64,000 nucleotides of DNA from SAR202 cluster bacterium (lineage in GTDB: Bacteria > Chloroflexota > Dehalococcoidia > Lucifugimonadales > UBA2985): positions 124,001-188,000 of the forward strand of contig VFHP01000024.1 in assembly GCA_009391535.1 (NCBI GenBank). The letters are read 5' to 3'. Positions 12,034 through 23,250 of the stretch are shown here, one piece after another (the first letter of the stretch is position 1; every line of letters begins with the position of its first letter). A program made the position numbers and the translations under genes. The notes beneath the pieces are model-generated. The model searched no databases. It saw only the letters and a program-made list of their open reading frames with translations, and was not told where the DNA came from.

Positions 12034-12402
12034 ATGGATGATTCGATAAAATTAAGTAATATTAAACTCTACGGATATCATGGCGTTAATGATTTTGAGC
12101 GGGAAAACGGACAATATTTCTTGATAAATCTTGAGTTCTTCACAGACTTGAAGAAAGCTGGTTTATCAGATTCTTTGAAGGATACTGTTGATTATTCAAA
12201 AGTGTATGAGTCGATCAAAAATATAGTAGAAGGACCTAGTATCAGGTTGTTGGAAAAACTGGCCGCCGTGATGGTGGATAAGATTTTTGAAACCTTCCCA
12301 CAGGTGAGCGAGTTAAATCTAGAAATAGAAAAGCCCAGACCTCCGATAGAAGGATCGTGTATAGATGGAGTAAGTGTAAGGATCAATAGGAGCAAAGCAT
12401 AG
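12034..12402 (+). CDS. folB: Dihydroneopterin aldolase
   Basis: A 122-residue single-domain protein with the tunnelling-fold FolB pattern: IKLYGYHGVNDFERENGQ near the start, DTVDYSKVYE (about 47-56), and a C-terminal KPRPPIEG in which the lysine and glutamate match conserved active-site positions. It converts dihydroneopterin to hydroxymethyl-dihydropterin and glycolaldehyde in folate synthesis. GAAGGA precedes the ATG. No other folate gene is next to it. Confidence 0.93.
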   Translation: MDDSIKLSNIKLYGYHGVNDFERENGQYFLINLEFFTDLKKAGLSDSLKDTVDYSKVYESIKNIVEGPSIRLLEKLAAVMVDKIFETFPQVSELNLEIEKPRPPIEGSCIDGVSVRINRSKA

Positions 12403-12512
12403 ATAATATTTTTGCAAATAAGTTTTAAGGACTACCATACTGTGGGATTTGTTCCGAAAAATGAAGTAACGTTATTAAATACGTAAATTATGAAAAATGT
12501 GTATTTAAAGTC

Positions 12513-12541
12513 TTGACGGTGTCACTTTGGATACATGTTAT
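12513..12541 (+). promoter_or_regulatory. Weak candidate promoter upstream of rplI
   Basis: TTGACG (12513-12518) and TGTTAT (12536-12541) are 17 bases apart in the 289-base space between folB and rplI. The -10 match is only partial. A 14-codon Cys/His-rich reading frame (12573-12617) would be the first one on such a transcript. Confidence 0.3.
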
Positions 12542-12691
12542 CCTTAATGCTAACTGTTATATAAAAGCGAGTATGTGTAGGTTTTGTTTTGGTCACAATT
12601 GTCACTCTCGCAAATGAAAAGAGTTTCTTCAAGAACAGGTTACACGTTTGTTTGACAGGTTAATTTTGAGCCAAGAAGGTGGTAAAGTATT

Positions 12692-13237
12692 ATGAGAGTC
12701 ATATTTCTGGATGATGTGCCGAATGTTGCTAGAGCTGGAGATGTCAAAGATGTAAAAAATGGCTATGCAAGGAACTTCTTGTTACCCAAAGGTATTGCAG
12801 TGGCCGCAACTTCTGAAGAGATGAAACGGATAGAAACTATAAGGAAAGTTGGACTTGAACGACAATCCAAACTTAAGGATGGGGCTCAGGCTCTGGTTGA
12901 ACGACTCGAATCTTCCAAATTCACGATAAAAGTTAGATCTGGCCCAAATGGTAGACTTTATGGAGCGGTTACCAACGTAATGATTGCAGAAGAAGTATCT
13001 AGGTCATTGGAGTTGGATGTTGACCGAAGAGATGTGATGCTTGCAGAACCCATACATGAAACAGGTTCTTTTGAGGCTAAGATTAAGGTTCATCCTGAGA
13101 TATCTGCGAACATTAGATTGTCCGTAGAAGATATAGATTCTACTGGGAGCGAAGTAGAATCTATATCTTCTACGGAAGATTCTACTCAAGATTCCTTAGA
13201 AAACTCAGATACAGATTTGGATACGGAAGAACAATAG
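12692..13237 (+). CDS. rplI: 50S ribosomal protein L9 with an acidic C-terminal tail
   Basis: The first about 147 residues are a standard L9: MRVIFLDDVPNVARAGDVKDVKNGYARNFL-type N-terminal rRNA-binding domain, a connecting helix and the C-terminal domain ending near HPEISANIRLSVE. The family is usually about 148-150 residues, so the last 33 or so (a Ser/Asp/Glu/Thr-rich tail) are extra. The DNA for that tail contains a perfect 23-bp inverted repeat (13121-13143 with 13154-13176). AAGGTGG gives a good ribosome binding site. The usual neighbours rpsF, ssb and rpsR are absent; dnaB follows after 22 bases, as in many genomes. Confidence 0.95.
   Translation: MRVIFLDDVPNVARAGDVKDVKNGYARNFLLPKGIAVAATSEEMKRIETIRKVGLERQSKLKDGAQALVERLESSKFTIKVRSGPNGRLYGAVTNVMIAEEVSRSLELDVDRRDVMLAEPIHETGSFEAKIKVHPEISANIRLSVEDIDSTGSEVESISSTEDSTQDSLENSDTDLDTEEQ
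13121..13176. repeat. Perfect 23-bp inverted repeat inside rplI
   Basis: Bases 13121-13143 and 13154-13176 are exact reverse complements around a 10-base loop (13144-13153). Both arms are in frame and code for the acidic tail of L9. Shortly after the right arm, GAAGATTCTACT (13175-13186) repeats part of the left arm with six bases missing. The transcript would form a long hairpin just before the end of rplI and ahead of dnaB. Confidence 0.9.
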
Positions 13238-13259
13238 TAGCAATAAGGATTGAACTATT

Positions 13260-14621
13260 ATGTATGTAGAGAAACTTCCTCCACATGATGAGCGAGCGGA
13301 AGAATCCGTTGTTGGCTCTCTGCTTATAGATGGAGAGGCCATAGTTACGGTATCTACGTTGCTAAAGCCAGATGATTTTTATATAGAAAAAGCGAGATGG
13401 TGTTATGAGGCTTGTCTGTCGTTGTGGGAAAGCAATGAAGCAATAAACCCAATTACTGTTGGCCATAGACTTGCGATTCTAGATAGGTTGGATTCTATTG
13501 GCGGCCCTTCTTATTTGGGTTATTTAGTTAGTTCCTTACCAACGTCATCTCACGTTGAACATTACGCGAAGATAGTCAGCCGCAGTCACACTTTACGGAG
13601 ACTCATTGATGCTGCTGGGGAAATAGCATCTATTGGATATGATGGCTATACAGATGTTGATAGATCCCTTTCTCAGGCAGAAGATTTGTTGTTCAAAATA
13701 AGAACAGGCCAGGAGTCGAGAGATTTTGTGGCAATTAGGGATGTTCTAGATCAATATTTAGAAGAAAGTGCCCGTATAGATAGTTCTGTGGATGCGGGTG
13801 AAACACCTGTCTACACCTCATTTGTGGACTTGGATCAGATACTAGGAGGATTTCAACGTTCAGACTTGGTTATATTGGCATCGGGCCCTAGTGTTGGCAA
13901 GAGTACTTTAGCATTGAATATAGCTAGGAACGCTTCTGGACAAGGGCTTGGTGTAGGGGTATTCAGCTTGGAAATGAGTCGTGAACAGATAGGGCACAGG
14001 TTTCTTTCCAGTGAAGCTGATGTTAATTTGAGATTGGTTAGACAGAGATTGTATGGTGACTTGGTAGAAGGGAGAATAGTAAATGCTGCTGGCACACTGT
14101 CAGAACTTCCTATATATATAGATGATACTCCTTTGCAGGGCATAGTTGATATTCGTAATCGATGTAGAAGGATGCATATGGAGAGAAAATTAGACTTTAT
14201 TATTATAGATTATTTGCAGTTAATACAGGGTACAGGGAGGCGAGAAAATCGTGTCCAAGAAGTAGGTGAAATTACTAGATCTCTCAAGGGTCTCGCTAGA
14301 GATCTAAACTTGCCGGTTCTCGCATTATCACAGTTGAGCAGAGCTGTGGATGTCCGCCCATCGCATAGGCCTCAGCTTTCAGATTTAAGGGAGAGCGGTA
14401 GTATAGAGCAAGATGCGGATGTTGTTATGTTTATACATAGGGAGGACAGAAATTTAACTGAGAATGAGTGGTATGAACAGCATCCAAATCAGGAATTTCC
14501 TAATGGATTGGCGGATTTAATAGTTGCCAAACACAGACATGGCCCTTTGGGCACTATAAAGCTTAGGTTCAATGGTGCGATGGCAAGATTTGAAGACACT
14601 CCAACTTACAGGGAGCAATGA
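13260..14621 (+). CDS. dnaB: Replicative DNA helicase DnaB
   Basis: A 453-residue hexameric replicative helicase. The N-terminal domain (about 1-105) begins LPPHDERAEESVVGSLL, a typical DnaB start. The RecA-like domain has Walker A GPSVGKST near residue 207, FSLEM near 239, the DNA-binding region, IIIDYLQLI (Walker B) near 315 and the QLSRAVDVRP...DLRESGSIEQDAD motif near 360-385. No intein interrupts it. The stop codon overlaps the ATG of the DnaD-like gene (ATGA), which indicates translational coupling within the L9-primosome transcription unit. Confidence 0.97.
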   Translation: MYVEKLPPHDERAEESVVGSLLIDGEAIVTVSTLLKPDDFYIEKARWCYEACLSLWESNEAINPITVGHRLAILDRLDSIGGPSYLGYLVSSLPTSSHVEHYAKIVSRSHTLRRLIDAAGEIASIGYDGYTDVDRSLSQAEDLLFKIRTGQESRDFVAIRDVLDQYLEESARIDSSVDAGETPVYTSFVDLDQILGGFQRSDLVILASGPSVGKSTLALNIARNASGQGLGVGVFSLEMSREQIGHRFLSSEADVNLRLVRQRLYGDLVEGRIVNAAGTLSELPIYIDDTPLQGIVDIRNRCRRMHMERKLDFIIIDYLQLIQGTGRRENRVQEVGEITRSLKGLARDLNLPVLALSQLSRAVDVRPSHRPQLSDLRESGSIEQDADVVMFIHREDRNLTENEWYEQHPNQEFPNGLADLIVAKHRHGPLGTIKLRFNGAMARFEDTPTYREQ

Positions 14622-15400
14622 TGAAAGCACCCAATGGATTCCCTGATAAATCTAAATTTACACCTGTACCCAATTTATTGTTCGGGCAATTGCTAGAAGA
14701 AGTCATAGATATGTGGCAATTGAAGTGTCTCCTGCGCTTGATGTTTATGTTAAACCAGAAAAAGGGATTCCCTCGATTCCTAACTTGGGAAGATCTAATT
14801 TCCGATAGAGTTTTACGAATTGCACTTTCTGATTACACTTATGATCACAATGAAATACCGAATCATTCGATTCGTGATCACGATCCGTACGTTTATAAGT
14901 TGGCAAATATTTTGCACGAACTTGATTCATTGGGCCTAATATTGTCTGTTGACAAGCATGAGTCAATTGATGGCTTTAGTGTTGCTAATGCTTTTCTCAT
15001 AAATAATGAAGAAGGTAGACGGGGTATAAAGTCGGTAAGCGGTAAGTTTGATGGTAAATCGGGTATTGGCAGTCAAGGAACATTAAACGGAGGAACAACC
15101 GTTCTACCGAAAGACCGACCTAACATTTTCTCATTGTATGAAGAAAACATAGGTATAATTGGTCATATTATGGCGGAAGAATTAAAGGAAGCTGAAAAAG
15201 AATATCCTGAATCTTGGCTTAACGAAGCGTTTAGAGAGGCGGTAATACAAAACAAACGGAATTGGAGTTACATAAAGGCAATCTTGCACAACTGGACTGA
15301 AAATGGAAAAGGAAGTGGAAATGGAGAGTTTGGGAGACATTCTAAAAAGGTTGACTCACGAGAATGGATCAGAAAACATGGATTACCAAAACCAAAATGA
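14618..15400 (+). CDS. DnaD-like primosome protein
   Basis: A 260-residue protein. The N-terminal about 120 residues look like a winged-helix replication-initiation domain (PNLLFGQLLEEVIDMWQLK, then KGFPRFLTWEDL). The C-terminal part from about 178 to 228 (YEENIGIIGHIMAEELKEAE, WSYIKAILHNW) matches the DnaD/DnaB_2 domain, which binds DNA and helps restart or initiate replication in Gram-positive bacteria. It starts on the dnaB stop codon (ATGATG at 14618) and overlaps the helicase loader downstream by about 80 bases. This gives a compact DnaB-DnaD-loader cassette, so a role in helicase loading is a reasonable inference. Confidence 0.82.
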   Translation: MMKAPNGFPDKSKFTPVPNLLFGQLLEEVIDMWQLKCLLRLMFMLNQKKGFPRFLTWEDLISDRVLRIALSDYTYDHNEIPNHSIRDHDPYVYKLANILHELDSLGLILSVDKHESIDGFSVANAFLINNEEGRRGIKSVSGKFDGKSGIGSQGTLNGGTTVLPKDRPNIFSLYEENIGIIGHIMAEELKEAEKEYPESWLNEAFREAVIQNKRNWSYIKAILHNWTENGKGSGNGEFGRHSKKVDSREWIRKHGLPKPK

Positions 15401-16700
15401 GACACTAGAAGGATTTGAAGAGCCTTCATGCCCTATATGTGGAGATTTTGGTTGGGTGAGAAGACACGTTTCTGTCAATCATCCTGATTTTGGCAAAGCA
15501 TTCAGGTGTGTCTGCCATACTTCAATCCCTGACTCTTCACGCTTGGAAAGAATTCGACATTACAGCAATATGGGGCATTTGGCTGCAATTACTTTTGAGA
15601 AGACGAAGCCCGAGGGAAGGTTGTCTGATCAGTCGGCTACTGGTTCATTTAATGGAGCTTTTGACGAATCACTGAAATATGCCCAAGACCCTTCAGGATG
15701 GATTGTATTTACGGGTCCTAGTGGATCCGGCAAAACTCATTTAGCTTCCGCTATCTCGAATAGATTGATTGATGAGGGTAATTCGGTTCTATTTGTATTT
15801 GTTCCTGACCTATTGGATCACCTAAGGTCAACATACTCCCCTAACAGTGAGTTTTCATACAATGAATTTTTTGAACAAGTTAGAACTGCACCTTACTTAG
15901 TCTTGGACGATCTTGGTGTCCACAATAGTACCTCATGGGCACATGAAAAATTATACCAGATTTTGAATCATAGGTATGTCAACAAATTGCCGACAGTTAT
16001 TACGTTAGCCTTACCAATATCAGATTTAGATCCTAGATGGCAGACTAGGTTAACTGACCTAGATTTAGTCAATGAGGTTTCCTTGGGTAAGAATACGAAT
16101 TTTGGCCCCACAAATGAATGGGGAAAAGTTGGAGCGGAATTATTGAAGCGTATGACCTTTGAATCATTTGATGTTGGAGGAAATAGAGCTAATTCTAATC
16201 AAAAACAGAGTTTGGAAGTAGCTTTGCAGATTGCACTTAATTTTGCAGAAGATCCTGACGGATGGCTAGTTTTTATTGGTCCTAGTGGTTCTGGCAAAAC
16301 ACATCTATCTGTTGCAGTGGCTAACGAAAGGTTAAACAAGCATCAGGACGTTAGATATTTTATGGTAGCAGATCTTCTTGACCAACTAAGGGAGGCCTTT
16401 AGTCCTGACAGTGCTTATAGTTACTATAGACTCTTCGAACAAGTACGCAATGCAGATCTACTTATTCTGAGAGACTTTGATTTTGACCTGCAACATGTTA
16501 CTCCGTGGGCAAGGGAAAAATTGAATCAACTACTTATTCACAGATACGATTCCAGATTGCCCACCCTAATAACGACTGTTGAACTCGATGAGAATCGAAA
16601 AACAGACCCGATAATGTCAAGGTTGCAAGACGTAACCATGGTTTCGATAATTCCAATTGATGCACCAGACTATAGAGTTAGTACCAGGCGCACAGGATAA
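15321..16700 (+). CDS. DnaC/DnaI-like helicase loader with two fused ATPase domains
   Basis: About 459 residues. Order: a short helix (MESLGDILKRL); a four-ligand zinc motif CPIC...RCVCH (residues 37, 40, 63, 65/66); a first DnaC-type ATPase with GPSGSGKTH (132-140) and LVLDDLG (193-199); a linker; and a second ATPase with GPSGSGKTH (320-328) but LLILRDFDFD where Walker B should be (380-389). Family loaders usually have one ATPase. The two domains align along their length (SYNEFFEQVRTAP against SYYRLFEQVRNAD). The second keeps the SRLQD arginine motif; the first keeps TRLTD. I start at ATG 15321, which has AAAGGAAG at the right distance; ATG 15303 is possible. It would load DnaB at the fork together with the DnaD-like protein. 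Confidence 0.85.
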   Translation: MESLGDILKRLTHENGSENMDYQNQNETLEGFEEPSCPICGDFGWVRRHVSVNHPDFGKAFRCVCHTSIPDSSRLERIRHYSNMGHLAAITFEKTKPEGRLSDQSATGSFNGAFDESLKYAQDPSGWIVFTGPSGSGKTHLASAISNRLIDEGNSVLFVFVPDLLDHLRSTYSPNSEFSYNEFFEQVRTAPYLVLDDLGVHNSTSWAHEKLYQILNHRYVNKLPTVITLALPISDLDPRWQTRLTDLDLVNEVSLGKNTNFGPTNEWGKVGAELLKRMTFESFDVGGNRANSNQKQSLEVALQIALNFAEDPDGWLVFIGPSGSGKTHLSVAVANERLNKHQDVRYFMVADLLDQLREAFSPDSAYSYYRLFEQVRNADLLILRDFDFDLQHVTPWAREKLNQLLIHRYDSRLPTLITTVELDENRKTDPIMSRLQDVTMVSIIPIDAPDYRVSTRRTG

Positions 16701-16701
16701 T

Positions 16702-16729
16702 AAAAGACTAAAACTCTTGATTTGAAGAG
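16702..16729 (-). terminator. Weak intrinsic terminator of the micro-gene (minus strand)
   Basis: On the minus strand CTCTT-CAAATC-AAGAG (16729-16714) is followed by TTTTAGTCTTTTA. The stem is only about five pairs, so termination may be partial. It lies between the convergent loader gene and the 22-codon frame. A separate GGTATA-TTTC-TATACC hairpin sits at 16745-16760. Confidence 0.4.
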
Positions 16730-16797
16730 GCACGATGTTTATTTGGTATATTTCTATACCTTATCAGCTATCCTGTACTAGGGCAGTGTAATGCTCT

Positions 16798-16866
16798 TTA
16801 TCTCCTTGGGTATGGTGGTGTCGGCGGAGTTTTTATCTCGCCCTCACATCCGCAGCTATCGCACAT
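16798..16866 (-). CDS. Candidate 22-residue cysteine-rich micro-protein
   Basis: A short reading frame too small for ordinary gene finders. The peptide begins MCDSCGCEGEIK and ends PPTPPYPRR: a CxxCxC metal-binding-like head and a proline-rich basic tail. Support comes from context. AAGGGGG lies nine bases before the ATG, a near-consensus promoter lies at 16904-16931, and a weak terminator follows. The MCxxCGC start resembles the metal-binding N-terminus of HypB proteins, but nothing else of HypB is present. I know no family for it. The alternative is a small RNA whose sequence happens to contain the frame. Confidence 0.45.
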   Translation of the reverse strand: MCDSCGCEGEIKTPPTPPYPRR

Positions 16867-16903
16867 GTTTTTGTACCCCCTTGTTATAAATGTGTCGCAT
16901 ATA

Positions 16904-16931
16904 ATAATACAGTTAATGTTGTAACTGTAAA
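16904..16931 (-). promoter_or_regulatory. Promoter of the micro-gene
   Basis: Minus strand: TTTACA (16931-16926), 16-base spacer, TATTAT (16909-16904). Each hexamer is five of six from consensus. The predicted transcript start is about 30 bases before the ATG at 16866. Confidence 0.55.
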
Positions 16932-17044
16932 CCTTTCACCATGTAAACTGATTGACCGGCCTTACATACTTTGTAGTATTCAGATGAGCATGCGGCGCAC
17001 AACCTCAAAGAATCAACAAAGAATCAACTGGTTTCAGAGTATAT

Positions 17045-17121
17045 TGGTGGCGCATACGGGAGTCGAACCCGTGATCTCCGCCTTGAGAGGGCGGCGTCCT
17101 TGGCCACTAGACGAATGCGCC
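17045..17121 (-). tRNA. tRNA-Glu (anticodon CTC)
   Basis: On the minus strand the acceptor arms GGCGCAT and ATGCGCC pair over seven bases, followed by discriminator A and an encoded CCA. The anticodon stem CCGCC/GGCGG encloses the loop CTCTCAA, giving anticodon CTC, which reads GAG codons. The T arm carries GGTTCGA. The 77-base molecule is complete. Confidence 0.97.
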
Positions 17122-17398
17122 AGTTTTTCTTTATCAATGTGTCAGCCCATTGGAATAATCTTATCATACTGACTTTTGTCAGAGAATAGGATACTAGGTC
17201 GGCTTCATTTATTTCTCGATAAATGAAGTAATGCAATAGGAAACTGAAGTACTTTAATGTATTTTCTATAATGTATAACTGGTACAAACATCGTCTAAAT
17301 GCGTGTCTGTTTTGCGAAACATTGCGGATTGGTTAGGATAAATAGGGTTACATCCCAAAAATGTGGTTAAATATTCGAATTTACTAGCAAAAATTATA
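17122..17398. other. Intergenic region between tRNA-Glu and the transporter
   Basis: I see no gene here. It holds a perfect 10-bp inverted repeat, CTTCATTTAT/ATAAATGAAG with loop TTCTCG (17203-17228), and an isolated TATAAT at 17267-17272. The minus-strand tRNA promoter should lie near 17130-17190; CTGACA followed by TATGAT-like boxes is present but with poor spacing. Confidence 0.5.
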
Positions 17399-17427
17399 TT
17401 GACAACGCTTTTTTACTATGCTACATT
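17399..17427 (+). promoter_or_regulatory. Strong promoter of the peptide transporter operon
   Basis: TTGACA (17399-17404), 17-base spacer and TACATT (17422-17427) with the TGn extension at 17419-17421. It lies about 28 bases before the start codon, which is preceded by GGAGGAGGAG. Confidence 0.65.
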
Positions 17428-17454
17428 CCCCCTAACATTCTCGGAGGAGGAGAT

Positions 17455-19476
17455 ATGAGTGTGCGTTTTGCGTATCCATTGAGGCCGCTCGTAGCGATTT
17501 TAGCAGTCACGATGACTTTCGTGGCTCTTGCATGCGGTGGTGAAGAAGAAGCCGCCGCCCCTGCAGCGACGTCAGCTCCTGTAGCTACGTCAGCTCCTGC
17601 CCCCGCGACCACAGCTCCGTTGCCACAAGCAACTGAGGCACCTGCAGCAGCAGATACCTCAGATGCAGCAGCAGAGCCTGCAGCGACAGCAGCTCCTGCG
17701 GCAGCAGCCACAGAAGCACCTGTAGCAGCAGTAGTTGCGGATTACCGGGACGATTGGATCAACTTCCTGAAGCAGCACAAAGGCTATAAAGCTGAGTGGG
17801 GAGAGCCTACGTACGGTGGTATAATTAAGACCGCCGACCCAAGGCCAGCTTCCAGGTTCCAATCAACCTTGGGATATAGTGCGTTTAGCCGATGGCAGTT
17901 TGCGGCGCACAACAGTCTTCTGTTCATGGACCCATGGGGGACCATCAGAGACGCACCGGTATGTGATCTTTGCGAAAGCTATGAGATCAGTGCCGACGGA
18001 CTTAAGTACACCTTCAAGTTGAGGGAAAATGTACAGTTCCATTCTGAAGGATGGGCTAAAGATCAGGGAGCACCTGGCTTCGGCACCGAACTGGCTTGTG
18101 AAGACATTAAAGCTAGTATCGAGTGGTTTGCCAACCCGCCTCCTGAGACCCGAGCTTCGTACATCAAGTTTGGTAACACCATTATGGGCCATCTTGACGA
18201 GGCAACCTGTCCAGACGGTATGTCAGGTAAAACAGTTGTGTTGAACTTCAGCAAATATCGAAATGCAACTATCTACTGGCTCGCTGCTGGTTTTGCAGTG
18301 TGGGACAAAGAATATCGTGAGTGGATGGACGCTGAGTATCCTGGTGTGCAGTCAACTGCAAACCCAGAAGGTTACATGATTAACATGGGAACCGGTCCTC
18401 AGATTCCTCTGTCTGCTGATTCACAGACAGTCATGAAGGTAAGAAAGAACCCTAACTACTTTATTCCTGGGGCACCGTTTGCTGACGGTTTTGACACCTT
18501 CGCCATTCAGGACTACAACACGAAGTTCGCAGCCTTGGTAACTGGTAAAATCCACCAGGCCGGTCACGGTAGTAGTGGTATTACTAAAGCCCAGGTAAAA
18601 CAGGTGCAGGATTCCTATGCTGACATCATAGAACTTCAGATCGTTAGGTATAACCACATATCAGGTGTTAGGATGAACAACTTGATTCCTCCATTTGATA
18701 AATGGGAAGTACGTTGGGCGGTTCAGATAGCTCTAGACCGCATGGACTGGGACGACTTCATGACTGTAGGTGACGTCAAGATGTCTAACCCTGCCTACTA
18801 CTTGCATATAGACAGTGGTTGGGGTAAACCAGCTTCCGAATTCATGAAAACCAAAGGTTGGAATCCAGAAACCAAAGACGCTGACATAGCTGAGGCTAAT
18901 GCCTTGCTGGATGGTGTTTTCGGAGCAGGAGTACGACCTAAGACTGACCAGTATGTAATACAGCTGCTCAGTCGACGTGAGATCAGTGTATGGGCCATCG
19001 ACTTCTTCAAGAAGTATCTTAACTGGGAATTCGATGTAAAGTACGTTGACACTTACGGTAACATCGCCACGGACTGTCTCTACACCATAAGGGCAGAGGC
19101 TAACCCGAACCCGAACAAGCAGGTATACGCTTCAGATCCGAGTGACGCGTTCTGGGGTGTGCATAGTGAGTGGACAACTTCTGAGAAGTGTCTGCACACT
19201 GGTTGGAAAGGTGATGGCGAAGCATCAGCTGACGAATTGGCTAAGGTAAATGGTTGGGTTGAAGACCTCGACACCAATCTTGACCAGGCCAAGAGGCTGG
19301 AACTTGCTCGAAAGATTGAGGCATACTTGGTCGAAGAGCGAAGCACAGCCGCTATTTTGGGTGTTATGAACGTTGCATGGCCAAACCGATGGGAGTTAAA
19401 GGGTAACAGGTATTATAACCTGGGCACCTACTCGCAGCAGCGTCTACATGACAGATTGTGGTTGAACGAAGGTTAA
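17455..19476 (+). CDS. Peptide/nickel-type ABC transporter, substrate-binding lipoprotein
   Basis: 673 residues. A signal peptide (basic MSVRFAYPLRP, hydrophobic stretch) ends in a good lipobox, LALAC style (VALACGG, Cys near 27). About 65 residues of Ala/Pro/Thr-rich linker follow, then the SBP family 5 domain (FKLRENVQFHSEGW, the lobe-crossing IALDRMDW). It would be anchored to the outer face of the membrane and deliver an oligopeptide or similar solute. The gene is visibly richer in G+C and C-ending codons than its neighbours, consistent with high expression. GGAGGAGGAG gives a very strong ribosome binding site. A strong terminator follows, so it can be made in excess over the permeases downstream. 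Confidence 0.93.
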   Translation: MSVRFAYPLRPLVAILAVTMTFVALACGGEEEAAAPAATSAPVATSAPAPATTAPLPQATEAPAAADTSDAAAEPAATAAPAAAATEAPVAAVVADYRDDWINFLKQHKGYKAEWGEPTYGGIIKTADPRPASRFQSTLGYSAFSRWQFAAHNSLLFMDPWGTIRDAPVCDLCESYEISADGLKYTFKLRENVQFHSEGWAKDQGAPGFGTELACEDIKASIEWFANPPPETRASYIKFGNTIMGHLDEATCPDGMSGKTVVLNFSKYRNATIYWLAAGFAVWDKEYREWMDAEYPGVQSTANPEGYMINMGTGPQIPLSADSQTVMKVRKNPNYFIPGAPFADGFDTFAIQDYNTKFAALVTGKIHQAGHGSSGITKAQVKQVQDSYADIIELQIVRYNHISGVRMNNLIPPFDKWEVRWAVQIALDRMDWDDFMTVGDVKMSNPAYYLHIDSGWGKPASEFMKTKGWNPETKDADIAEANALLDGVFGAGVRPKTDQYVIQLLSRREISVWAIDFFKKYLNWEFDVKYVDTYGNIATDCLYTIRAEANPNPNKQVYASDPSDAFWGVHSEWTTSEKCLHTGWKGDGEASADELAKVNGWVEDLDTNLDQAKRLELARKIEAYLVEERSTAAILGVMNVAWPNRWELKGNRYYNLGTYSQQRLHDRLWLNEG

Positions 19477-19514
19477 TTATCCTTCGGACAGCTACGATTT
19501 AGCTGACAATATAG

Positions 19515-19554
19515 AAGTGCCTCCCGGGCGACTGGGAGGCACTTCTTTTTTATT
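19515..19554 (+). terminator. Intrinsic terminator after the binding protein gene
   Basis: AAGTGCCTCCC pairs with GGGAGGCACTT (11 bp, 8-base loop), followed by TTCTTTTTTATT. It separates the lipoprotein gene from the permeases and would give unequal expression within the operon. Confidence 0.92.
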
Positions 19555-19743
19555 GGTGTCTCGTAACGATGGTGACGTAGATTGTGACTGACTCTAAATT
19601 ATATCTGACGTATAAAAACTATCCAAAATCATTGACATTTAATTATATAAGTGTTAACTTCTGATTCAATGAACAATAGCGCCTAGTAGCGCTGGTTGCA
19701 GGCTGAATTCGTAGATTCTGGTTAATTAAAACTGGGAGGTACT

Positions 19744-20700
19744 ATGGCACAGTATGCGTTACGTAGAATATTCTTAGGTTTTCTTACAGCGATCTTGGTG
19801 TCAATTATCGTCTTCGTTATACTTCGTATAGCACCAGGAGATGTAGTAGATATTATACTCGGTGGTGAGGACGCTTTTTACTCTCCGGAAACGGAGGAGT
19901 TGTTAAGAGAGCAGCTGGGTCTTAATAGACCTTTACCGGTTCAGTATCTGGATTTCATGGGAGACTTTTTCACACTTAATTGGGGTGAGTCGTTAGTTGA
20001 CAGTAAAGAGATATGGCCTCAAATTAAGGAAAAACTACCAGTTACTCTTGAACTAGCTGGGTTGACAGTTTTCTTCGCAGTGTTCTTTGGCATACCTGTA
20101 GGTGTGCTGATGGCTCTGCAACAAGATTCTAAATTGGATTATTTCTTGAGGATCATGTCATTAGGCGGATTGTCTATACCCAGTTTCTGGTCGGGGACGA
20201 TAATCATATTGGTCGGCACTATGTATTTCAACTGGAGTCCAAGACTGGAGTACGTGTCATTTTTCGATGATCCAATGGGTAATTTTGTTATGTTTTTCTG
20301 GCCAGCGGCCTGTAACGGTTGGGTTTCTCAGGCTACCAAAGCGCGAATGATGCGCTCGACGATGCTCGAGGTATTGAGGCAGGACTATATACGGACGGCC
20401 CACGCTAAGGGCTTGAGATATGCAGTAGTGGTTTATAGGCACGCTATGAAAAATGCGTTGCTGCCGGTTGTTACCATCATAGGTATAACAGTAGCTTTGA
20501 CCATTGGTGGATCTGTAATTATGGAAACAGTGTTTATGTTACCAGGTATGGGATCATTCATGGTTTATAGTCTGACACGATGGGATTACCCAGTCGTACA
20601 GACTTTAGTGTTATTCTTCTCCAGTTGGATCGTTATAACCAACTTATTGATCGACATGAGTTATGGTTGGTTGGATCCTCGGGTAAGGTATGACAGTTGA
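19744..20700 (+). CDS. Peptide/nickel-type ABC transporter permease (DppB type)
   Basis: 318 residues with six predicted membrane helices. The N-terminus MAQYALRRIFLGFLTAILVSIIVFVILRIAPGD-type segment and the inner-membrane EAA loop (YIRTAHAKGLRYAVVVYRHAMKNALLPV, near 215-240) are typical of DppB/OppB permeases. It forms the translocation channel with the DppC-type protein downstream. GGGAGGT lies four bases before the ATG. The 267-base leader after the terminator contains TTGACA at 19632-19637 but no convincing -10 box. Confidence 0.93.
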   Translation: MAQYALRRIFLGFLTAILVSIIVFVILRIAPGDVVDIILGGEDAFYSPETEELLREQLGLNRPLPVQYLDFMGDFFTLNWGESLVDSKEIWPQIKEKLPVTLELAGLTVFFAVFFGIPVGVLMALQQDSKLDYFLRIMSLGGLSIPSFWSGTIIILVGTMYFNWSPRLEYVSFFDDPMGNFVMFFWPAACNGWVSQATKARMMRSTMLEVLRQDYIRTAHAKGLRYAVVVYRHAMKNALLPVVTIIGITVALTIGGSVIMETVFMLPGMGSFMVYSLTRWDYPVVQTLVLFFSSWIVITNLLIDMSYGWLDPRVRYDS

Positions 20701-20749
20701 TGAAATTGGTAGATTTAAATAGCTTAATATCTCGTTTGAGGGGGTTATA

Positions 20750-21667
20750 ATGGCAACTGAGCAAGAAACACCTAGTGCAGGTGCATTACTAGGTCGCAGG
20801 GCGAGAGATGAGAGATCTCTTGTAATTAGGGGACTCTCGACTGTAAAGAGTTTCTCCAAGAGAAAGCCTCTTGGGGCAATAGGTGGGTTTATTATATTAA
20901 TTATGGTTCTTCTGGCGGTATTCGCTCCGGTTATTGCGAACGACCCAATGGAATGGAACCTGAGAGATAAATTCCAATCACCTAACCTGGAATACTGGCT
21001 GGGAACTAATGACGTTGGGCAGGATCTGTGGGCCCAGATTGTATATGGAGCACAGATTTCATTGTACGTGGGTATATTGTCTGTAGCATACGGTTCAGGT
21101 ATTGGTGGCATTGTTGGATTGGTTAGTGCCTACTACGGTGGTAAAACTGACGTGATCATACAAAGAATCATGGATGCAATGATGGCTATTCCTACGCTGG
21201 TGTTAGCCTTGGCTATTATGGCGGCGTTGGGTGGCTCCGTAAATAACGTGGTTATTGCGATAGGTGCTGTACAGATACCCCGGGCAAACCGTATAGTACG
21301 GTCGCAGGCCTTGGCGGTTAGAGAATCGGAGTTCGCTCTCGCAGCAAGATCTATTGGAGCGACGGACATGCGCATAATGTTTCAACACATAATGCCTCAG
21401 TGTGTTGCTCCTTGGTTGATTATCGCAACTGCGGCTCTTGGAACGGCAATAATATCAGAAGCCTCGTTGAGCTTCTTAGGTATGGGTGTTCCTCCAACGA
21501 CGCCTACATGGGGTGGCATGCTATCACAAAGAGGTCGTGAATATTTCGTTCTAGCACCTCAGATGGCTATATTCCCGGGTATTGCCATTTCTCTTGCTGT
21601 ATACGGATTCAACTTATTTGGCGATGCTATTAGGGACGTTTTAGACCCTCGTTTAAGAGGCAGTTAA
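20750..21667 (+). CDS. Peptide/nickel-type ABC transporter permease (DppC type)
   Basis: 305 residues with an N-terminal cytoplasmic extension (about 40 residues) and six membrane helices. The extracytoplasmic segment DPMEWNLRDKFQSPNLEYWLGTNDVGQDLWAQIVYGAQ and the EAA loop (EFALAARSIGATDMRIMFQHIMPQ, about 192-215) identify the DppC/OppC family. It starts 49 bases after the DppB-type gene. No ATP-binding subunit follows; a strong terminator ends the unit, so the ATPases must come from another locus. Confidence 0.93.
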   Translation: MATEQETPSAGALLGRRARDERSLVIRGLSTVKSFSKRKPLGAIGGFIILIMVLLAVFAPVIANDPMEWNLRDKFQSPNLEYWLGTNDVGQDLWAQIVYGAQISLYVGILSVAYGSGIGGIVGLVSAYYGGKTDVIIQRIMDAMMAIPTLVLALAIMAALGGSVNNVVIAIGAVQIPRANRIVRSQALAVRESEFALAARSIGATDMRIMFQHIMPQCVAPWLIIATAALGTAIISEASLSFLGMGVPPTTPTWGGMLSQRGREYFVLAPQMAIFPGIAISLAVYGFNLFGDAIRDVLDPRLRGS

Positions 21668-21685
21668 CCCGTAGATCAAAAAAGT

Positions 21686-21727
21686 AAAAAGAGAGGGGTG
21701 TTTATGCACCCCTCTCTTTTTTTGTTT
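21686..21727 (+). terminator. Intrinsic terminator of the transporter operon
   Basis: A stem of AAAAAGAGAGGGGTG with CACCCCTCTCTTTTT and a six-base loop, ending in a run of T. It is A-rich on the 5' side and can act in both directions. Confidence 0.92.
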
Positions 21728-22023
21728 GAGATAAATTTAAGAGCTAAACGGATAACATTGAGCAATGTCTAGAGCAGAATATATTATATTTATGGGGCGG
21801 TGCGGTACATTGGATGAGAAAATGTTCTTAGAATGAATGTGAAAGATCCCATAATATGGAATCGCAAGATCAACTCAGCCTATGTTTTTAATCGAGCGTC
21901 TAAAATGTTACGATTCATAAAAACATCTTTACTAGAGGTCACTATGAAAGCAACTTTGGATTTGTGATTCGTTCTTACCTACGAGTCCTGTTGTTTTTAT
22001 AAAAATATCAGGGACAATTCTTT
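21728..22023. other. Intergenic region without a recognised gene
   Basis: Between the transporter terminator and the convergent aminotransferase gene. Only short frames without ribosome binding sites are present. I see no promoter, RNA gene or repeat. Confidence 0.5.
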
Positions 22024-23250
22024 TTAGAAAATTTTGCCATCGTTGTAGAAGCCGGTTTTAAGGTTTTCTAATTTGTCCCATTTGGCGAAAACCTGTTTAG
22101 CTGATGTTATGCTTGAGCCAACTTGGAATTTGTGGTCCGTTTTAGCTAATAATTCTTCTAGTGCTTCTAAGAAGGTGAGGACGTTAGTCTCTTGTGACGA
22201 TTCTCCCATTAGTCCTATTCTCCAAATCTTGCCAGCTAAGGGCCCAAATCCACCGGCAATCTCTATTCCATATTCAGATAGGAGTGACTTTCTTATGGTG
22301 GCTTCATCTACAGTATCGGGTATAATTGGAGCGGTCAGAGGCGGGGCTTGATATCCGTCCTGTGCTAATATTTCAAATCCTAGAGCCTTGAGGCCTTCCT
22401 TTAATGCTTCGGCATTGGTTTGATGTCTATGTACTCTATTAGGCATGCCTTCTTCTATCGCCATAGAGAGGGCTTCTCTTACGGCGTATATTATTGGCAT
22501 AGAAGCTGTATGATGGTATGTGCGGTCGCTAATCCAGTACTTTTCTAATAGGAGCAAATCCAAGTAAAAACTTTGAATACTGGTGGACCTGTTTTTGATT
22601 TTTTCTACGGCTTTATCACTAAGTGTTATTGGAGACAAACCCGGAGGTGCTCCAACACATTTTTGTGTGGCACTGTAGCATATGTCTACTCCCCACTCAT
22701 CTATTTTCATCTCTATGCCACCTAAGGATGTTACGCAATCTGCTAAAAACAGGGCTCCTTGTCTATGTGCAATATCGGCCAAAGGTTTTAGTGGCTGTAT
22801 TACACCTGTAGATGTTTCGACGTGTACGGCTGCTAGTAGTGCTAATTTATCGGTTGATTTGACTGCTTTTTCAACGTCTGACAAATTTAGTGGGTGGCCC
22901 CAATCAGCAGAAACAGTGGTGACGTTTGCTCCACATCGTTCTGCTATATCGGCTATCCTTTGACCAAATAATCCGTTTACTCCTACTACTACATTATCTC
23001 CAGGCTCCAAAATATTTACCAAAGCTGCTTCCATTCCGGATGTGCCTGTACCAGATAGAGGTAACGTAAACTTGTTAGATGTACCGAACAGTACTTTAAG
23101 CATGGCGACTAATTCATCCATTACTTTTAGAAAGGTAGGATCCAGATAACCCATAATAGGCATGGACATGGCGTTGATTACCCTGGCATTCACGTTACTA
23201 GGGCCTGGGCCTAGTAAGAGTCTGTCTTTAGGTTCTGTAAGATGGTCCAT
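22024..23250 (-). CDS. Class V aminotransferase, alanine-glyoxylate / serine-glyoxylate type
   Basis: About 408 residues of a PLP-dependent aminotransferase. LLLGPGPSNVNARV at the start, SGTGTSGMEAALVN near 70, the DCVTSLGG segment near 188 and SATQKCVGAPPGLSPI with the PLP lysine near 208 are characteristic of the AGXT/SPT branch. It should move an amino group between alanine or serine and glyoxylate (or form hydroxypyruvate) in glycine/serine metabolism. ATG at 23250 is chosen because AAGGAA precedes it by about six bases; a GTG at 23274 would add eight residues. It is transcribed alone, divergent from the unknown gene at 23409. Confidence 0.9.
   Translation of the reverse strand: MDHLTEPKDRLLLGPGPSNVNARVINAMSMPIMGYLDPTFLKVMDELVAMLKVLFGTSNKFTLPLSGTGTSGMEAALVNILEPGDNVVVGVNGLFGQRIADIAERCGANVTTVSADWGHPLNLSDVEKAVKSTDKLALLAAVHVETSTGVIQPLKPLADIAHRQGALFLADCVTSLGGIEMKIDEWGVDICYSATQKCVGAPPGLSPITLSDKAVEKIKNRSTSIQSFYLDLLLLEKYWISDRTYHHTASMPIIYAVREALSMAIEEGMPNRVHRHQTNAEALKEGLKALGFEILAQDGYQAPPLTAPIIPDTVDEATIRKSLLSEYGIEIAGGFGPLAGKIWRIGLMGESSQETNVLTFLEALEELLAKTDHKFQVGSSITSAKQVFAKWDKLENLKTGFYNDGKIF

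Follow-up and report, generated by a model that had tools for sequence, protein, structure and literature searches.

Template switching during replication has been documented in E. coli and yeast, where it can give perfect hairpins in one step and changes coding sequences (PMC7202029, PMC6357072, PMC8604942, PMC8794818). The template-switch mutation is a known type, and what is unusual in the case that we report here, a perfect inverted repeat inside the gene for ribosomal protein L9 (rplI), is the length. Four described systems can be set beside this locus. First, the E. coli lacZ QP reporters (PMC7202029, PMC6357072) share with it a perfect in-gene inverted repeat whose one arm looks as if templated by the other, but the reporter quasi-palindrome is 18 bp long, against a stem of 24 bp here, and the event that we propose was not observed directly and is deduced from one genome. 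Second, protein-coding template switches in yeast (PMC8604942) likewise show homogenization of the arms that alters coding sequence; those events were fixed by a 50-strain tree, whereas no same-genus comparison is available for rplI. Third, the coding palindromes of Nematomorpha mitochondria (PMC6649704) are also perfect inverted repeats inside translated genes, but they reach up to 284 bp, are numerous and lie in conserved protein regions, whereas the rplI repeat is short and located in a variable tail. Fourth, the Rickettsia palindromic elements (described in PMC10969869) are, like the rplI repeat, in-frame palindromic DNA in a protein gene; however, they are about 150 bp long and form multicopy families, while the rplI repeat is 56 bp long and present in a single copy.

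The perfect inverted repeat in rplI

The repeat spans 13121-13176 of the window (the whole stretch of 64,000 nt that was analyzed), exactly where a preliminary description had placed it. The locus is organized as follows, in positions of the window.

12034-12402: folB, upstream of rplI
12692-13237, + strand: rplI, ribosomal protein L9, 181 aa, with Pfam L9_N and L9_C matches
13121-13144, + strand: 5' arm of the repeat, encoding SVEDIDST
13145-13152, + strand: loop of 8 nt, GGGAGCGA
13153-13176, + strand: 3' arm, reverse-complementary to the 5' arm without a mismatch and translated as part of EVESISSTE
13177-13186, + strand: AGATTCTACT, direct repeat of 13135-13144 and reverse complement of 13153-13162 (10 bp)
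13260-14621, + strand: dnaB, the next gene, 22 nt 3' of the rplI stop

The two arms are 24 nt long and complementary throughout (24/24 bp, 100%), on either side of the 8-nt loop. The perfect complementarity reported earlier is therefore correct, but the sizes given with it (23-nt arms and a 10-base loop) need adjusting because T13144 and A13153 also pair, adding a 24th base pair to the stem. The whole repeat folds as one unbroken stem, with a predicted energy of -38.4 kcal/mol as RNA (z -11.3) and -23.3 as DNA. Both arms lie in the rplI reading frame, as previously noted, with the second shifted by one base relative to the first, and the frame is open across the repeat up to a stop just before dnaB. 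Within the protein, the repeat corresponds to codons 144 to 162 of 181. The L9 core extends to about residue 146, the end of the Pfam L9_C match, and is followed by a 35-residue tail—of which the repeat forms the first half—that is as acidic as first described (13 D/E and no K/R). The view that the repeat encodes residues beyond the normal end of L9 holds for most of them, except that the 5' arm opens with three codons (S144-V145-E146) that are still part of the core. The partial third copy is genuine as well, since AGATTCTACT at 13177-13186 repeats 13135-13144 exactly. As for a target-site duplication, a 9-nt direct repeat, TACGGAAGA, occurs at 13171-13179 and 13222-13230; the palindrome is not flanked by its copies, and the available relatives are too distant to provide an empty site for comparison.

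All 26 contigs of the 1.36-Mb assembly (1,362,308 bases) were scanned for perfect inverted repeats with a loop of 3-60 nt, and the 24-nt one in rplI proved to be the longest. The next longest (20, 19, and 19 nt) are outside ORFs, and their arms contain A and T tracts, which makes them resemble bidirectional terminators.

Two other features of the region were recorded. Downstream of dnaB, an ORF at window positions 15303-16700 contains two tandem IstB/DnaA-like ATPase stretches and adjoins a DnaB_2 (DnaD-like) protein at 14618-15400, the two possibly representing a duplicated helicase-loader arrangement. At window positions 21675-21732, a long but imperfect inverted repeat is bordered on each side by A/T tracts and so resembles a bidirectional terminator.

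A probable template switch at the variable end of L9

The reading that we favor, with a probability of roughly 0.8, is that the repeat arose when replication switched templates (quasi-palindrome "perfection") within the L9 tail, which varies freely. The nascent 3' end would have copied the 5' arm and the loop and then folded back on a short complement, such as TCTACT/AGTAGA; the 5' arm would then have been copied again, now in reverse-complement form, before synthesis resumed on the normal template. A single event of this kind would yield a perfect 24-bp stem, by luck in frame, and its product could survive because a low-complexity L9 tail would tolerate Ser/Glu/Asp/Thr-type codons. The 10-bp inverted pairing between 13153-13162 and AGATTCTACT at 13177-13186 may be what is left of the quasi-palindrome from which the event started. 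The layout of the arms is consistent with such a scenario. The 5' arm starts at the Val-Glu conserved at the L9 end and the 3' arm falls within the freely varying tail, which is what would be expected from fold-back copying of a conserved arm. Since its first codons match the conserved L9 end, 13121-13144 is likely to be the template arm, and 13153-13176 is likely to be the copied one, although we infer both the switch and the direction of copying from one genome.

Comparison with relatives places the repeat in context. The family set consists of five genomes including this one, one per genus, and L9 identity to the family relatives is 55-59%. A contig search for nearer genomes yielded, beyond distant relatives, only a duplicate contig of this locus (CAJXCD010000025.1, see below). 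In three of the four relatives (G001, G003, and G004), L9 is 148-151 residues long and almost tail-less, whereas L9 of the fourth (G002) has a 49-residue acidic tail containing no perfect stem longer than 6 nt. The pairing is thus absent from all four, and the repeat is lineage-specific. Alignment to the relatives is limited to the first codons of the 5' arm, the remaining tail being too diverged or absent. In other members of the order, acidic L9 tails of 30-90 residues are common, again with no perfect stem longer than 7 nt; over the family and the other order members examined, the longest perfect stems at this site measure 4-7 nt. The tail of G002 and the tail here have an EVES motif in common; however, in a tree of L9 and DnaB, the tail-less G003 and G004 are nearer to this genome than G002 is, so that common ancestry of the two tails is uncertain. 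A search of viral contigs found no relative of the rplI-encoded protein.

Three considerations temper the template-switch reading. The perfection of the 24-bp stem could reflect later selection for pairing; the whole tail, and not one arm alone, may be a recent gain; and there is no same-genus genome to show the ancestor or the switch points, the L9 proteins of the family being only 55-59% identical.

Other possible origins of the repeat

The alternative that survives best, although we consider it unlikely, is an mRNA hairpin selected at the rplI-dnaB junction, where it might serve as an RNase III site, a stabilizer or an attenuator setting dnaB expression. The stem is very stable, the dnaB start is 84 nt downstream of it, and the gap between the two genes is short (22 nt). 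Nevertheless, this stem is kept in no relative, and it is located within translated codons, where ribosomes would open the pairing. An intrinsic terminator or attenuator was rejected because the stem is followed by AGATTCTACT, with no U-run on its 3' side, and the scan called no terminator on the + strand. A conserved structured RNA was rejected because of the lack of pairing in relatives and because the Rfam search of the stem region gave no family at gathering score, all matches being sub-threshold. On the same grounds—no stem in relatives, no U-tract, and no Rfam family at threshold—the RNA structure between rplI and dnaB put forward in the preliminary description finds no support. The hairpin in the mRNA would then be a by-product, with no function indicated for the stem and presumably no selection acting on it.

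It is quite improbable that the repeat is an artefact of assembly or amplification, i.e., a fold-back chimera. Amplified DNA can yield short-loop inverted repeats as chimeras, and the source is evidently metagenome-assembled (26 contigs, 89.6% complete). Against this, the reading frame is open through the repeat to the stop just before dnaB, and a second metagenome-assembled genome (MAG) contig, CAJXCD010000025.1 from run ERR599156, is identical to window positions 12385-22167 over 9,783 of 9,783 bases, while a random chimera is not expected in a consensus. The MAG that includes this contig belongs to another family and carries its own, different rplI, and CAJXCD010000025.1 evidently belongs to the organism analyzed here and was mis-binned. 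It confirms the repeat sequence but may come from the same sample or reads and is not fully independent.

We regard as very improbable the other origin suggested earlier, in which a palindromic mobile element, comparable to a Rickettsia palindromic element or a MITE, was inserted and absorbed in frame. The presence of the repeat in frame within a protein tail and the lack of this segment in three of the four family relatives would fit such an insertion, but the searches for other copies do not. The arm has no second site in this genome with up to three mismatches allowed, its only match among 250 genomes of the order is the duplicate contig CAJXCD010000025.1, and a short-word BLAST with the repeat returned only short chance matches. 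Moreover, at 56 bp the repeat is far below the size of the Rickettsia elements, about 150 bp (PMC10969869), and an insertion would not explain why the 5' arm starts in conserved L9 codons.

Finally, the probability that low-complexity acidic and serine codons gave the repeat by chance is negligible. Such a codon repertoire eases moderate palindromes, and some synonymous shuffles of the whole rplI give long arms (at least 24 nt in 4 of 3,000, under a null that is over-conservative because it keeps the protein sequence, which the repeat itself produced). However, when codon order in the tail was shuffled 20,000 times, no arm exceeded 16 nt, and 29 further L9 3' ends, many of which encode tails that are longer and more acidic, contain no perfect stem longer than 7 nt. 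The repeat, the longest perfect one with a loop of 3-60 nt in the assembly, is not a product of chance or codon usage, in agreement with the initial opinion that drift was very unlikely to produce it. That opinion had come with a proviso, namely that the repeat would be a chance product of acidic-codon usage if relatives had the tail without the pairing and no other copies existed. We did find a tailed relative without pairing and no other copies, but the conclusion does not follow from these two observations, since the shuffles exclude chance. A templated fold-back copy in replication, which was absent from the options considered at that stage, is most likely the remaining cause.

In-gene repeats across the genome and exonuclease VII

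Perfect inverted repeats within genes (loop of 3-16 nt) were counted and compared with a synonymous-shuffle expectation. This genome has 9 with arms of at least 12 nt (1.1-1.3 expected), 7 with arms of at least 13 nt (0.35-0.6 expected), and 3 with arms of at least 16 nt (0.06-0.12 expected). In G002 (about 1.16 Mb), the corresponding counts are 9 against 0.85 expected for at least 12 nt and 3 against 0.18 for at least 13 nt. Since the excess is also found in G002, the process is a general one that is not confined to rplI. After rplI, the two longest in-gene repeats of this genome, both at variable protein segments, are the following.

L113:5982-6024 (G000:C20:25982-26024): 16-nt perfect inverted repeat, loop 11, in ornithine carbamoyltransferase (OTC)
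L068:7619-7654 (G000:C15:7619-7654): 16-nt perfect inverted repeat, loop 4, in a RimI-like acetyltransferase

Of the two OTC arms, one overlaps the conserved ASPPxY motif and its partner is in a stretch that is variable among relatives, a layout as would be expected if one arm had been overwritten from the other. The RimI-like repeat is within an insert that is variable among relatives.

Exonuclease VII (ExoVII) is among the nucleases that limit template-switch mutations in E. coli, although our literature search found no paper stating that it suppresses template switching. All four family relatives have its large and small subunits (xseA and xseB), but neither was found in this genome, whose assembly is 89.6% complete. 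Most of the genes flanking xseAB in G002 are also without a clear counterpart here, which, together with the level of completeness, makes a missing stretch as likely as a true loss. Five in-gene repeats of at least 14 nt are found in this genome and none in G002, a difference between two genomes that is suggestive. Taken further, these observations would depict a lineage that lost ExoVII and so accumulates long in-gene template-switch palindromes, with rplI as the extreme case, and that is a natural template-switch mutator whose fold-back copying rewrites variable protein segments, an idea that we hold to be unlikely. Loss of SbcCD as the cause of palindrome tolerance finds no support, because each of the five family genomes has SbcD.

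In conclusion, a long perfect hairpin within a gene need not mean an RNA element or mobile DNA. The rplI repeat, from an uncultured Chloroflexota-like bacterium, is what we infer to be a clear natural example of how fold-back in replication can rewrite the end of a conserved ribosomal protein. The excess of in-gene repeats, combined with the possible loss of ExoVII, offers a testable case of how often fold-back events feed protein tails.
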